A stretch of 43,130 nt of DNA, taken from positions 1 to 43,130 of the forward strand of contig JAOAGZ010000013.1 of assembly GCA_026415495.1 (NCBI GenBank). The letters run 5' to 3'. This stretch comes from Eximiradius proteiniborus. GTDB lineage: Bacteria; Bacteroidota; Ignavibacteria; Kapaibacteriales; UBA2268. The translations under genes were made by a program, and so were the position numbers. Under the pieces are notes generated by a model, which worked only from the letters and a program-made list of their open reading frames with translations, was not told where the DNA came from and did no database searches. Positions 23,645 through 29,802 of the stretch are shown here, piece by piece; positions within the stretch are counted from its first letter, which is position 1, and every line of letters begins with the position of its first letter.

Positions 23645-24955
23645 ATGGATAAAGCACGCTTAATAAAAGAGCTTAACGAAGGGAACGAAACATCTTTACT
23701 TATAGAAACCATTATTTCTATTGCCCAGACAAATGATTTCGACGAAGATGTTGTAAAATCTCTTTGTGAATTAATCACTCATGATGATAGCGGCGTTCGT
23801 GATGTCGCTGTTCGAGCTTTGTGTGATTTGAAAGGAGATTTGGCACGCCTTGCAGCTGAAATTATTGCTCCGCATATTCTAAGTCATAATATCGAGCTTC
23901 GTAATACTGCTGGCGATATTCTGGCTCACCTTGGAGAACCCTCTGCCGAATTTCTTCTGAACTATCTGGACAATCCTGACCCTGATGTCAGAAAATTTGC
24001 GTGCGATTTGTTCGGGCTTATTAACACTCGCCATCTGGCTCATAGAATTCATCCTTTGCTCGACGATCCTGATGAAAATGTTGTTCAGGCAGCTATTGAA
24101 ACGCTTGGTAATTATCAGGATGAAGCCATTATTGAAAAATTAGTTAAAATTTACAACACCAAAGAAGAACAAAAACCAAATGTTATCGAAGCCCTTGGCA
24201 AAATTGGTTCACGAAAAGCTATTGATTTCCTTATATTTGCTTTAACAGACGAAAAAGACGATTTTCTAAAAACAGAAATTATCGATGCCTTATCCATAAA
24301 TTGCGATGATATTGAAGTAGCTCGCCAACTTTTTTCAAAAATAGAAGAAGTTAGCGAAACAATTCAGATTATTATTCTAAAAACTGTTGCAGCTATATCA
24401 TTTAGGTTAGGTGAAGAATTTACTCTTCCCGATAATTTACGATACCTTGCCTACAAAGCCCTATTCGACGACGATGATGATATTCGTGCCGCTGGTCTTA
24501 TTTCCTTAGGAAATGTGTTTGTAAAAGACGATTTCCCATCATTAATGAATGAAATTTTCAAAGGCAATAGCGATACTCAAAGCTTTGTTTTAGAAAAGTT
24601 GTTAAAATATAACTCACCCGAAATAATTAAAGATTTTTTCAAAGCTTTCTATAATGAAATTATTAATCGTTCAATGATTGGTTGCGATATAGATTTTCTC
24701 TCATTGCTTACTTATCTTTGGGATGAAACTCCCGATAACAACAAATATGCTGTAATAGACGTTATTTTTGATAATCTAATTGTTTGCAAATCAATCGAGT
24801 GTTCCTCTGCTGTGGAATTATTATTTAAACTTGATTATCAGAAATCAATTGAAAAAATTAAACAATTGTATGTTATTTCAGACGACAATAATAAAGAGTA
24901 TATCGAAGAATTGTTCAATAATGCAGGAATCGACACAAGTTTAATTCATCATTAG
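23645..24955 (+). CDS. HEAT-repeat protein
   Basis: The 436-residue protein has no signal peptide. It is built from helical HEAT-like repeats, clearest between residues 40 and 260 (DDSGVRDVAVRALCDL, HNIELRNTAGDILAHLGEP, PDPDVRKFACDLFGLI, PDENVVQAAIETLGNY, KPNVIEALGKIGSRKAIDFL). The C-terminal half is more divergent. It is probably a cytoplasmic protein-binding scaffold. Its position just upstream of cheR, on the same strand with 65 bp between, suggests a link to the chemotaxis-type module, but a partner cannot be named. An AT-only inverted repeat lies just before it at 23564-23605. Confidence 0.82.
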   Translation: MDKARLIKELNEGNETSLLIETIISIAQTNDFDEDVVKSLCELITHDDSGVRDVAVRALCDLKGDLARLAAEIIAPHILSHNIELRNTAGDILAHLGEPSAEFLLNYLDNPDPDVRKFACDLFGLINTRHLAHRIHPLLDDPDENVVQAAIETLGNYQDEAIIEKLVKIYNTKEEQKPNVIEALGKIGSRKAIDFLIFALTDEKDDFLKTEIIDALSINCDDIEVARQLFSKIEEVSETIQIIILKTVAAISFRLGEEFTLPDNLRYLAYKALFDDDDDIRAAGLISLGNVFVKDDFPSLMNEIFKGNSDTQSFVLEKLLKYNSPEIIKDFFKAFYNEIINRSMIGCDIDFLSLLTYLWDETPDNNKYAVIDVIFDNLIVCKSIECSSAVELLFKLDYQKSIEKIKQLYVISDDNNKEYIEELFNNAGIDTSLIHH

Positions 24956-25020: not shown

Positions 25021-25932
25021 ATGGCAGCTCGATTATTTCAATTTGGGGCTGGCAAGCCAACAGAAGAAAGTAAAGAAGTAAAAAAAATAGTGCCGGTGAA
25101 AATGGAACTAAGTGATAATACTTTTAATGAGTTAAGAAATTTTATATACGATCAGTGTGGAATTTACTATACTGACAATAAAAAGTATTTGCTCGAAGGA
25201 AGAATTGCAAAACGTATTTCCAATAATAAACTTTCTTCGTTCGAAGAATATTTGAATTTCCTTCGCTCTCCAATGGGAAGAAACGAACTGAATGAACTTT
25301 TCGATGCTATTACTATCAACGAGACTTATTTTTTCCGTGCTCCCCAGCAGTTCGAAGCTTTTGAAACCCATATTGTCCCGGAAATTCTTTCTCCCCGCCA
25401 AAATTTATTCAACCCTGTATTTCGTATTTGGAGCGCAGCCTCTTCAACCGGCGAAGAAGCCTACACGCTGGCTATGATTGTTGCTGAAAAGCTCAAACCA
25501 ATGTATCCTCGCGTGCAATTCCAGATCCTTGCAAGTGATATTAATAAATCTGTATTGGAACAAGCTCAACAAGGCGTTTATAAAGAATATTCTATCAGAA
25601 ATGTTCCACCACATCTGCTAAAAAAATATTTCACTCAGCATGGCACAAACTATGTTCTAAGCGATGAAATAAAACAGATGGTTAAATTTATGAATATTAA
25701 TCTCTATGATGCCCAGCAAATGCGCACTGTTACTAATTGCGATGTTATCTTCTGCTGTAATGTGTTGATCTATTTCGATATGCCATCTAAGCAGCAGGTG
25801 GTTACTCATCTTTATAATTCTCTTAACAAAGGTGGATACTTGTTCATTGGTTACTCCGAATCTTTGCACGGTATCTCAAAGGCATTTAAATTGGTTCATT
25901 TCCCTAAAGCTATGGCTTATCAAAAAGAATAA
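25021..25932 (+). CDS. cheR: CheR chemoreceptor glutamate methyltransferase
   Basis: The 303-residue protein has an extra basic N-terminal tail of about 25 residues, then the CheR alpha-subdomain (FNELRNFIYDQCGIYYTDNKKYLLEGRIAKRI). The SAM-binding domain follows, with TINETYFFRAPQQFEAF, RIWSAASSTGEEAYTLAMI, ILASDINKSVLEQAQQGVY, VIFCCNVLIYFD and LFIGYSESLHG. It methylates receptor glutamates. No receptor gene and no CheB methylesterase are in the window. It is the first gene of the cheR-cheY-cheY-cheZ-cheA run. Confidence 0.95.
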   Translation: MAARLFQFGAGKPTEESKEVKKIVPVKMELSDNTFNELRNFIYDQCGIYYTDNKKYLLEGRIAKRISNNKLSSFEEYLNFLRSPMGRNELNELFDAITINETYFFRAPQQFEAFETHIVPEILSPRQNLFNPVFRIWSAASSTGEEAYTLAMIVAEKLKPMYPRVQFQILASDINKSVLEQAQQGVYKEYSIRNVPPHLLKKYFTQHGTNYVLSDEIKQMVKFMNINLYDAQQMRTVTNCDVIFCCNVLIYFDMPSKQQVVTHLYNSLNKGGYLFIGYSESLHGISKAFKLVHFPKAMAYQKE

Positions 25933-25956: not shown

Positions 25957-26322
25957 ATGGCAAAAACAATATTAATAGCCGAAGATTCACCATCAGTTCG
26001 CAAGTTTATTACGCTTGCACTCAAAATTAAAGGCTATCGCGTGCTTTCTGCCCAAGACGGTATGGAAGCCCTCGAAATTCTTCCAAAAGAAAAAATAGAT
26101 TTGCTGATTACTGATTTAAATATGCCTAATATTGATGGATTTAAACTTATTCGCTCCATTCGTCAAAATCCGGAATATAAAGATATTCCTATCATTATTC
26201 TTTCTTCTCTTGCAAAAGATGAAGATGTCAATGCTGGGCTGGCTGCTGGTGCAAATTCATATTTAATCAAACCTTTCAATACAAAACGAATTCAATATGA
26301 AGTTGCAAAATATATTGGATAA
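25957..26322 (+). CDS. CheY-like single-domain response regulator
   Basis: The 121-residue receiver starts at ATG 25957 (a TTG two codons earlier is rejected). The acidic pair is in LIAEDSPSVRKF, the phosphoacceptor is Asp53 in LLITDLNMPNIDG, the switch Ser is in IIILSSLAK, and the conserved Lys is in LIKPF. There is no output domain. It differs from its neighbour at 26389 in having ILSSLAK rather than MVTTRG, so it may be a phosphate sink or have a separate target. Confidence 0.93.
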   Translation: MAKTILIAEDSPSVRKFITLALKIKGYRVLSAQDGMEALEILPKEKIDLLITDLNMPNIDGFKLIRSIRQNPEYKDIPIIILSSLAKDEDVNAGLAAGANSYLIKPFNTKRIQYEVAKYIG

Positions 26323-26388: not shown

Positions 26389-26766
26389 ATGATTTTTTTA
26401 GTTGTGGATGATTCTCCAACTATGAGAAGAATAGTGATAAATGCACTTAAAACTTTCGGCTACAACGACGTTATTGAAGCCGGCGACGGACAAGAAGCAC
26501 TCGAAAAACTTCATCAAAATAAGGTTGATTTCGTTATCACAGACTGGAATATGCCTAATATGAGTGGGCTCGATCTTACTAAAGCTATTCGTTCGGACGC
26601 TCAATTAGCTCATCTTCCTATTCTTATGGTTACCACACGTGGTCTTAAACAGGATATTATCGAAGCTCTGAAAGCAAGAGTTAATAACTATGTAGTTAAG
26701 CCTTTTACTCCACAAGTGCTTAAAGAAAAATTAGATGCTGTCCTTAAAACTATTCAAAATTCATAG
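26389..26766 (+). CDS. cheY: Chemotaxis response regulator CheY
   Basis: The 125-residue receiver is very close to canonical CheY. It has the acidic pair VVDDSPTMRRIV, phosphoacceptor Asp52 in FVITDWNMPNMSGL, switch Thr in LMVTTRG, and the Lys in YVVKPFTP. GAGG precedes the start. It lies 12 bp before cheZ, which fits a CheY whose dephosphorylation is driven by the CheZ encoded next. Confidence 0.95.
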   Translation: MIFLVVDDSPTMRRIVINALKTFGYNDVIEAGDGQEALEKLHQNKVDFVITDWNMPNMSGLDLTKAIRSDAQLAHLPILMVTTRGLKQDIIEALKARVNNYVVKPFTPQVLKEKLDAVLKTIQNS

Positions 26767-26778
26767 TTTGGAGTTGAT

Positions 26779-27741
26779 ATGAAACAAAAAGATATTTCCC
26801 TTTTGCTCCAAAAAGCTGATGAATTGAGAGCACTTTTCGTATTAGGTCAGAGAGTTATTCCTTTCCTCGAAGAGATTTTTATTTTCGTAAGTGAAATTCA
26901 GCCACTTTTGGACGAGATAAATGCCTCTATTCAAGAGAATTTAAAGAAAATGCCTTCCGCTTCCAAGCAACTCAGCAAAGTTACAGAAGCTACCGAAATG
27001 GCAATTACCGAAGTTATGGATATAGTTGATGGCATCCAGTATAAAGTTGAAATTATCAAAAAGAACTATAATAGAATTATTGAAATTGTCCAAAAGAAAA
27101 GAGAAAATCCTATTGCTTTGCTCGAAGCACTTTATAAAGCAATTGAAAATGGTGAAGACCTTAAACAACATCTTCCCGTACTCGCAACAATTATTACAAC
27201 AATGAAAAAAATCCCTAATGCTGAAATTGACAAGATTTCTTATGAGACCGAAGAATTAATTTCCAGCATTACAAACGATTCAAACTCTATCATGATTTCA
27301 CTTCAAGTGCAGGATATTACTGCTCAGCAAATTGCTGCAGTTAATAACCTACTTGAAACTATCCAGGGCAAATTAACTAAAATTCTCCACCATTTCAATG
27401 AATCCGAAATTAGCGAACTTATGCATAAAGAGCCCTCGCCAGATGACAAAATGCAAGTTACTCAGCTTCACCGCAAAATTGCTTTCGACCCCGAGGCAGT
27501 CGAAGCTATGGCTAATAAAGAATTCCGCCAACAACAAGTCGATGAGGTTATCGAGCAAGTTGAAAGTGGAAATTTGGATGAACCAGTTGATATGGATGAA
27601 ATTGAAAAAATGTTCTCTAACCAAAATCCTTCGACTGAAGCAACCGGTGATACCAAATCCCCAGTTGTCGAAGATAATACCGAAGAAGATTCATTCGAGC
27701 AATTCTCTCAAGACGATATAGATGCTCTTTTTGGTAAATAA
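26779..27741 (+). CDS. cheZ: CheZ family CheY-P phosphatase with extended tail
   Basis: The 320-residue, largely helical protein is longer than E. coli CheZ (about 214). The catalytic segment VQDITAQQIAAVN matches the E. coli QDLTGQVI element, with Asp179 and Gln183 at the two key positions. A long four-helix region precedes it. After residue 230 the protein becomes acidic and probably disordered. It ends in SQDDIDALFGK (310-320), which resembles the C-terminal CheY-binding peptide of CheZ and the N-terminal one of FliM. A second similar peptide, DMDEIEKMF, is at 271-279. It sits between cheY and cheA. Confidence 0.88.
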   Translation: MKQKDISLLLQKADELRALFVLGQRVIPFLEEIFIFVSEIQPLLDEINASIQENLKKMPSASKQLSKVTEATEMAITEVMDIVDGIQYKVEIIKKNYNRIIEIVQKKRENPIALLEALYKAIENGEDLKQHLPVLATIITTMKKIPNAEIDKISYETEELISSITNDSNSIMISLQVQDITAQQIAAVNNLLETIQGKLTKILHHFNESEISELMHKEPSPDDKMQVTQLHRKIAFDPEAVEAMANKEFRQQQVDEVIEQVESGNLDEPVDMDEIEKMFSNQNPSTEATGDTKSPVVEDNTEEDSFEQFSQDDIDALFGK

Positions 27742-27753
27742 TTTGGAGTGATT

Positions 27754-29802
27754 ATGGCTTCGATGAGTTTTAACGACCCTGAAATGCAAGAATTATTCGA
27801 AGGTTATCTGATTGAAACTTCTGAACTTCTCGAAAATTTAAGCCAGGATCTAATTGAAATTGAAACAAGGGCAGACGATTTAGATTTAATAAATAGAATT
27901 TTCCGCAGTTTCCATACCATCAAGGGAACCTCTTCCTTTATGGGTTTCAATGCTATTGCTGATATTACACACCATGCCGAAGATATTCTTAATAAACTTC
28001 GTCGAGGCGAGATTAATGTTAATCAAGAAATCATAGATGTTCTTCTCGAAGTGCAGGATTGGATAACGATGATGGTTGCTCAGATTAAAGAAGGCAACGA
28101 ACCATATGCAGATTACTCTGAAACTATTGTTAAAATCCAGCGTTTGAAAGACACTCAGGCTCAGTCCACCTCATCAGAAGCACAAGAGACTCAAGGAACT
28201 CAGCAAATATTACCGGAGGGAACAAGTTTTGTTGAAGCTGTCCTTTCTAATCCTGAAATTGCTACTAAGCCGGGCGATTTCACTGATGAAGAATTAAAAC
28301 TTATCGATGCCGCTTTCCAGGAAATTAACGTCAAATTCAAAGACGAAATTTCTCAAACAAGTGATGCAGTTGATACCAGTGACGAGCAGGTCGAAGATCA
28401 AACTGTTGCTTTAGAGCCTCCACCTGTTCAAGAACAACAAAAGCCTGTTGAACATATTCACGGAATACCTGTTGTCGAATCTTCTGTTCAACATACAGTT
28501 GATCAGCCAGTAATACAACAAAATATTGCATCATCGCAACAAATCAAACCATCTTCCGGCAAAGAAACTTCAAAAGCTCCCGGTAAAGCCATCTCGTCTG
28601 ATACTATCAGAATTGATGTTAATCGCGTCGAAGCTCTTATGGATTTATCTGGGGAACTTGTGCTTGGTCGCAACCGTTTAGCTCAGATTACCGAATTGGT
28701 AGAGCAGGAATTCGGTAAAAATGAACACGTTCGCGATTTAATTGAAACTACTGCCCAAATTGATTTCGTTACTTCCGAAATTCAGGCTGCCGTTATGCGT
28801 ATGCGTATGGTGCCAATTGGCAAACTCTACCAAAAAGCTCCTCGTATTGTTCGCGATCTTAGCAAAGAATTTGGCAAGAAAATTAATCTAATCGTTAAAG
28901 GTGAAGAAACTGAAATAGACCGTGGTATTATTGAAGAATTAAATGATCCTCTTGTACATATGATTCGCAATTCTTGCGATCACGGTATAGAACCTCCAGA
29001 AGATAGAATTCGCCTTGGCAAACCTGAATATGGAACAATTACCTTAGACGCAGACCAGGAAGGCAATAACATTGTTCTGCGTATTTCCGACGACGGACGC
29101 GGAATGGATCCGGAAAAACTTAAAGCAAAAGCTATCGAAAAAGGAATCCTCACTCCCGAACAAGCATCACAAATGTCACCACGTGAAGCATTCCAACTTA
29201 TTTTTGCTCCCGGATTTAGCACTGCTGCCAAAGTTACTGCTGTGTCCGGTCGTGGGGTGGGTATGGACGTCGTCCGTTCCAATATCCAGAACCTAAAAGG
29301 AATGATTGATATTGAATCCGAAATTGGCAAAGGAACTACTTTTATAATTAAACTTCCTCTTACCCTTGCTATTATTCAAGGCTTGCTTGTTAAAGTGCAA
29401 GACGAAACTTATGCTCTTCCGCTTAGCTCCGTTGTTGAGGTTGTTGCAATAAATACTGATAGCGTCTATACCGTTAGCCATCAGGAAGTAATCCGTATTC
29501 GTCAGGAAGTAATTCCAATTCTTAGATTGGATAAAGTTTTAGGCGTTACTAATCCACGCGAAGAATTAGATAATCGCTATGTCGTCAATGTTGGCTTGGG
29601 TATGCAACGCATCGGACTTGTTGTTGATGAACTTCTCGGACAACAAGAAATTGTTATCAAGTCGCTCGGTGAATATTTAGGAAGTATAACAGGTGTAGCT
29701 GGTTCGACTATTTTAGGAGATGGGCGAGTAATTATGATTATTGACGTTGCCGACCTGATTCAGTCAATCTACAAAAATCAGTTTATGCAATTTGGTAAAT
29801 AG
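27754..29802 (+). CDS. cheA: Chemotaxis histidine kinase CheA
   Basis: The 682-residue protein starts at ATG 27754, 6 bp after TTGGAG; a GTG two codons earlier is rejected. The Hpt domain has phosphoacceptor His54 in IFRSFHTIKGTSSF. A Gln/Pro-rich linker (about 130-280) shows no recognisable P2 response-regulator-binding domain. P3 dimerisation (RVEALMDLSGELVLGRNRL) is followed by the P4 kinase (MIRNSCDHGIEPPEDR, RISDDGRGMD, FSTAAKVTAVSGRGVGMDVV, GKGTTFIIKLPLTLAI). The C-terminal P5 CheW-like domain contains ALPLSSVVEVV and LLGQQEIVIKSLG. It would phosphorylate the upstream CheY proteins. cheW is not in the window. Confidence 0.96.
   Translation: MASMSFNDPEMQELFEGYLIETSELLENLSQDLIEIETRADDLDLINRIFRSFHTIKGTSSFMGFNAIADITHHAEDILNKLRRGEINVNQEIIDVLLEVQDWITMMVAQIKEGNEPYADYSETIVKIQRLKDTQAQSTSSEAQETQGTQQILPEGTSFVEAVLSNPEIATKPGDFTDEELKLIDAAFQEINVKFKDEISQTSDAVDTSDEQVEDQTVALEPPPVQEQQKPVEHIHGIPVVESSVQHTVDQPVIQQNIASSQQIKPSSGKETSKAPGKAISSDTIRIDVNRVEALMDLSGELVLGRNRLAQITELVEQEFGKNEHVRDLIETTAQIDFVTSEIQAAVMRMRMVPIGKLYQKAPRIVRDLSKEFGKKINLIVKGEETEIDRGIIEELNDPLVHMIRNSCDHGIEPPEDRIRLGKPEYGTITLDADQEGNNIVLRISDDGRGMDPEKLKAKAIEKGILTPEQASQMSPREAFQLIFAPGFSTAAKVTAVSGRGVGMDVVRSNIQNLKGMIDIESEIGKGTTFIIKLPLTLAIIQGLLVKVQDETYALPLSSVVEVVAINTDSVYTVSHQEVIRIRQEVIPILRLDKVLGVTNPREELDNRYVVNVGLGMQRIGLVVDELLGQQEIVIKSLGEYLGSITGVAGSTILGDGRVIMIIDVADLIQSIYKNQFMQFGK

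Follow-up and report, generated by a model that had tools for sequence, protein, structure and literature searches.

How many CheY molecules can a single CheZ phosphatase engage, and which CheY would they be? E. coli CheZ has one docking helix per subunit, and it is a long-standing dispute whether the enzyme acts as a simple dimer or as an oligomer driven by CheY-P. The window analysed here, a stretch of 43,130 nucleotides from Eximiradius proteiniborus (contig JAOAGZ010000013.1), encodes a CheZ for which an earlier note had claimed more than one CheY-binding-like peptide. Several CheY-gripping peptides, compared with one in the well-studied enzyme, could hold several CheY signal molecules simultaneously. 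The features of the locus are collected in Table 1.

Table 1. Features of the cheZ locus, with positions in the window
Feature	Positions	Strand	Basis
cheR, conserved neighbour	25021..25932	+	Pfam; gene order in relatives
cheY1, the other response regulator, improbable as partner of the acidic peptides	25957..26322	+	Glu at the position of E. coli K119 in 66/66 homologues
cheY2, E. coli-like CheY, likely partner	26389..26766	+	Identity to E. coli CheY; peptide-binding face conserved
cheZ, 320 aa, long acidic C-terminal tail	26779..27741	+	ATG start; Pfam CheZ over cut-off
Catalytic motif QDITAQ (D179, Q183)	27310..27327	+	Both residues invariant in 27 homologues
Conserved tail block LHRKIAFDPEAV, residues 230-241, directly ahead of motif A	27466..27501	+	H231, R232, F236, D237, A240 nearly invariant
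Motif A (RQQQVDEVI, residues 250-258), docking-like helix of the CheZ type	27526..27552	+	Conservation; predicted helix
Motif B (DMDEIEKMF, residues 271-279), internal docking motif in degenerate form	27589..27615	+	Shuffle score, alignment, contact positions
Motif C, SQDDIDALFGK, residues 310-320, canonical FliM/FliN-like, C-terminal	27706..27738	+	Near-universal in homologues; helix predicted
cheA, conserved neighbour	27748..29802	+	Pfam; gene order in relatives

The CheZ protein and the elements of its tail

The cut-off of the Pfam CheZ family (PF04344, 30.7 bits) was exceeded narrowly, with 32.3 bits, whereas the score with the NCBIfam equivalog NF041271 (Phos_CheZ) was 19.1 bits, far under the cut-off of 350 bits. 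Judged by these two scores, the protein is a divergent CheZ outside the NF041271 equivalog. The catalytic pair had been recognized correctly in the earlier note: D179 and Q183, located within VQDITAQQ, were found invariant in the alignment of all 27 homologues. In E. coli CheZ the catalytic pair is at D143/Q147, and hhalign paired the QDITAQ stretch with that region, with a low score. Comparison with solved CheZ yielded no sequence match at E values up to 1. CheZ phosphatases are characterised by a long helical hairpin, two of which dimerise into a four-helix bundle; in the structure prediction of the single CheZ chain within a fusion (see below), long helices occupied residues 2-123 and 147-208. 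Conservation is highest over the N-terminal approximately 100 residues of the protein (ELRALFVLGQRVIPFLEEIF..., 26779-27090), over which several distant relatives match by 58-69% while being far less similar downstream.

The tail comprises residues 217-320, i.e. 104 amino acids with 28 D/E and 9 K/R. It had been described as an acidic stretch of roughly 90 residues with the peptides located beyond it; its acidic nature is evident, but the peptides lie inside the tail. The residue numbers given for motifs B and C were exact. Among the docking-like parts of the tail, motif A, which was absent from the earlier note, is conserved best. According to PMC3774744, contacts between the FliM peptide and CheY of E. 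coli are made by Q8 with V108, by D12 with K119, and by I11/L14 with I95, A99 and Y106. Of the corresponding residue types (Q, I, D, L/M, then a hydrophobic residue), motif C has all, and motif B has every one save Q, with E in place of D. The contact residues of motif A are Q, V, D, V and I, the form seen in E. coli CheZ. The contact pattern matched three times in the tail, compared with a mean of 0.16 in shuffled tails (P = 0.00035). Only 0.1% of the shuffled tails reached the score of DMDEIEKMF, and not one reached the score of SQDDIDALF. These shuffled-tail comparisons rule out chance matches as the origin of the docking motifs.

Motif A has the consensus RQxxVDx[LIV][IVF], which resembles QDQVDDLL of E. 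coli CheZ, and it is preceded by a conserved LHRxIAFDPxAV block. Q251 was invariant in 27 homologues and D255 nearly so; the pattern FDxxA...Q..[VAI]D was present in 81 of 93 homologue tails and in 18 of 4650 shuffled tails. The motif scores poorly with a position-specific matrix derived from C-type copies. In five homologues belonging to one branch (L018, L023, L097-L099) it has the form of the full [RK]Q[DE][DE]ID[RK][LI]F motif. Although hhalign paired it with the C-terminus of E. coli CheZ, the profile search did not separate this pairing from shuffles, and the relation between the two stays a likeness. Several homologues without any C-type motif terminate shortly after the LHRxIAFDPxAV/motif A block, as E. 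coli CheZ does after its docking helix, and for this reason the ancestral docking helix of CheZ may be represented by motif A, and motif C may be a FliM/FliN-like element gained later.

With E. coli CheZ (PDB 1KMI, in complex with CheY; tail ending in SQDQVDDLLDSLGF) the protein has in common the catalytic Asp/Gln and the vicinity of cheZ to cheY, together with two features that are putative in the window's CheZ, the helical hairpin and a disordered tether with a CheY-docking helix at its end. The tail of the E. coli enzyme is about 45 residues long and bears a single docking helix, whereas here about 100 residues carry three docking-like elements, the terminal one of which is of the FliM/FliN-like IDxLF rather than the VDDLL type. 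Profile similarity between the two proteins is weak.

The likeness of the peptide to the start of FliM and FliN, noted earlier, was found in this genome's own proteins: FliM begins with the docking peptide (MADVLSQHEIDSLL) and so does FliN (MTMTQEEIDALI). The SQxEIDxLL pattern and the contact positions are common to these N-terminal CheY-binding peptides and the CheZ tail; FliM and FliN, however, are motor switch proteins with one N-terminal peptide each. As both are encoded, a non-flagellar system is ruled out. The genome (2.2 Mb in 163 contigs; nearest named relatives labelled Candidatus Kapabacteria, Bacteroidetes and Ignavibacteria) was scanned with the pattern, which gave seven hits compared with none for the reversed control: CheZ, FliM, FliN, three sites interior to long open frames, and a seventh (L186) that is covered by no open frame of more than 60 amino acids. 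A looser scan gave eight hits compared with three for the control, the additions lying in the interior of frames, outside long frames, or, in one case (L040), near the end of a doubtful 121-residue frame. In these scans CheZ, FliM and FliN were the only plausible genes with the motif at a protein end.

Copy number in relatives and the state of motif B

A homologue was present in 36 of 60 relatives, in 52 of 123 genomes of the order and in 61 of 395 genomes of the phylum sample. From 106 distinct family ORFs, 93 tails could be excised by means of the catalytic motif. Copies were scored with a PSSM built from the C-terminal copies, the threshold being the score reached by 1% of shuffled tails; motif C scores high by construction, as C-terminal copies trained the matrix, whereas internal copies were mostly outside the training set. 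Counted as sequences and not as independent events, 8 tails had no copy and 40 a single one; two copies occurred in 20 tails, three in 13, four in 9, five in 2 and seven in 1. Thus at least two copies were found in 45 of the 93 tails, with a maximum of seven in one relative, and the claim of more than one CheY-binding-like peptide per CheZ holds clade-wide, with 2-7 copies in many relatives. A strict copy of motif C occurred in 83 of the 93 tails, the median distance of the last copy from the tail end being 2 residues, and many relatives have internal copies that hardly differ from motif C. Matches to the contact pattern over all tails numbered 230, compared with about 7 in shuffled tails. Copy number correlated with tail length (0.77). 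Strong adjacent copies were separated by a minimum of 14 and a median of 23 residues, a spacing that would leave enough room for separate CheYs. On the tree of CheZ cores, a quick tree with many open forks, the single/multiple state changed at least 12 times. A short motif common to the motor (FliM, FliN) and the phosphatase has been repeatedly copied and lost in evolution, and CheZ proteins ranging in nature from one docking peptide to seven would make valency directly testable against cooperativity and motor output.

E. coli CheZ and the CheZ loci of plasmid records L177, L178, L180 and L182 had one C-terminal motif each (5 of 5 read; L179 and L181 were left out). Second CheZ paralogues were observed outside the che operon in relatives L101, L102, L105 and L106, the one in L102 having four SQDDIDAMF copies within near-identical repeats, and in L126, L154 and L156 two cheZ-like genes stand in tandem inside the operon. 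In the literature searched, which excluded most subscription papers, none of the titles, abstracts or text passages seen described a CheZ with docking peptides in several copies.

Motif B aligns with a canonical SQDDIDALL/F in two sister genera (L005 and L006), which are the nearest sister lineages of the window's genus on the tree. Relative to these, the window's genus has lost the S and the Q, the latter being the Gln that contacts V108. In one congener (L002) the motif is under the 1% shuffle threshold, and copy number is labile on the tree. These observations are what would be expected if motif B were a decaying, functionless remnant of a duplicated docking peptide, with CheY bound by motif C alone or perhaps also by motif A. 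On the other hand, I275, M278 and F279 are constant in the four species of the genus and position 276 is always acidic (E/D), while residues 270, 273, 276 and 280 vary, the non-contact residue 273 being D, H, Q or G. Conservation of residues 271-279 among close homologues, which the earlier note had named as a check, thus extends to these contact positions in the four congeners. Retention of contact positions next to a freely varying residue 273 is unlike freely decaying sequence, in so far as four close species with few changes can tell, and we regard decay of motif B as doubtful.

CheY2 as the candidate partner of a proposed multivalent tether

CheY2 shares about 50-54% identity with structures of E. 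coli CheY. It keeps K92, I/V95, Y106, V108 and K119 almost without exception (K92 in 83 of 85 homologues, K119 in 85 of 85); in E. coli the two lysines make contact with acidic peptides of this kind. The alpha4-beta5-alpha5 face of CheY is the one used by FliM and CheZ in E. coli. That E. coli CheZ uses the same CheY face as FliM is also stated in PMC3774744. The position equivalent to E. coli E89 is Arg in 84 of 85 CheY2 homologues; E89 of E. coli CheY is linked to CheZ-mediated dephosphorylation by the title of PDB entry 1MIH.

Taking together what is directly observed, namely the sequences, their conservation, the variation in copy number and the matching face of CheY2, we consider it probable (about 0.65) that the disordered tail of CheZ tethers a single partner, the E. 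coli-like CheY2, in a multivalent manner. From these observations we infer binding, stoichiometry and what the tail would do, as follows. The Asp/Gln site of the core would dephosphorylate CheY-P, while the helix-forming peptides A, B and C would dock on the alpha4-beta5-alpha5 face of CheY2. Motif C would serve as the canonical site, motif A as a CheZ-type site common to nearly all homologues, and motif B as a weakened duplicate of C. Several CheY2-P molecules could in this way be kept close to the active sites, which would result in avidity and a steeper response, CheZ dimers could possibly be cross-linked, and the CheZ peptides would compete with FliM and FliN for the same face of CheY2. 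The distinct phosphatase architecture proposed earlier would thus amount to the known CheZ tether with altered valency and nothing beyond that.

Structure predictions with paired rows were made for two read-through fusions, CheY2-CheZ and CheY1-CheY2-CheZ. In both (pTM 0.35 and 0.29), CheY adopted its fold, CheZ formed long helices, and A, B and C were isolated helices within a tail of low confidence. The confidence of the tail helices, by blocks of ten residues, was 37-50 for B and 46-58 for C, and motif C formed a short helix in both. The best 50 matches of a fold search started from the fusion predictions were all CheY chains. The low pTM values and the low confidence of the tail helices, the missing Gln in motif B and its score in L002, the poor C-type score of motif A and its non-significant likeness to the E. 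coli C-terminus, and the Arg of CheY2 at the E89 position count against the tether.

A CheY-P-driven network, in which the tail of one CheZ dimer holds CheY-P at the active site of another and oligomers arise, is modelled in PMC1447658; for E. coli CheZ this model was later doubted (PMC2673030). The model of PMC1447658 was proposed for a one-peptide tail, and a multi-peptide tail would ease cross-linking. Extended to the present family, multi-peptide tails might cross-link CheZ dimers via CheY2-P into a network acting as a tunable CheY-P sink, with phosphatase activity rising cooperatively with the signal and lineages tuning its steepness by gain or loss of peptides. We think this extension unlikely.

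It is quite improbable that the tail peptides bind a target other than CheY (CheA, CheZ itself or the motor ring), setting the location of the enzyme rather than capturing CheY. Docking of the C type leaves the strong conservation of the LHRxIAFDP block and of Q251/D255 unexplained, and CheZ localisation elements are known elsewhere (PMC7750401). However, the pattern of motifs B and C fits the CheY-contact residues of FliM as given in PMC3774744, and the same genome deploys the pattern in FliM and FliN.

CheY1 and the gene neighbourhood

The order cheR-cheY1-cheY2-cheZ-cheA is conserved in relatives. In CheY1 homologues position 92 is mostly acidic or polar. The CheY1 family retains Tyr106 and Lys109, yet it carries Glu at position 119 (66 of 66), which suggests that CheY1 has a different partner. 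The number of motifs is not tracked by the presence of cheY1: 33 homologues with a single motif adjoin both CheYs, and a few with multiple motifs have no adjacent CheY1, although, with the short flanks of some loci, its absence is certain only if cheR or a long flank is visible. The earlier suggestion that the peptides serve the two neighbouring CheYs, with motifs B and C each specific for one of them, could draw on the conserved adjacency of cheY1 and cheY2 to cheZ and on the different sequences of B and C, but it is rejected as very improbable on account of the altered face of CheY1, this pattern of co-occurrence and the internal copies near-identical to C in many relatives.

CheA has Hpt, dimerisation, ATPase and CheW domains according to Pfam, which detected no separate CheY-binding P2 domain in it. 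A HEAT-repeat gene (23645-24955) lies upstream of cheR, and HEAT-like genes occupy this place also in relatives such as L093 and L097-L100.
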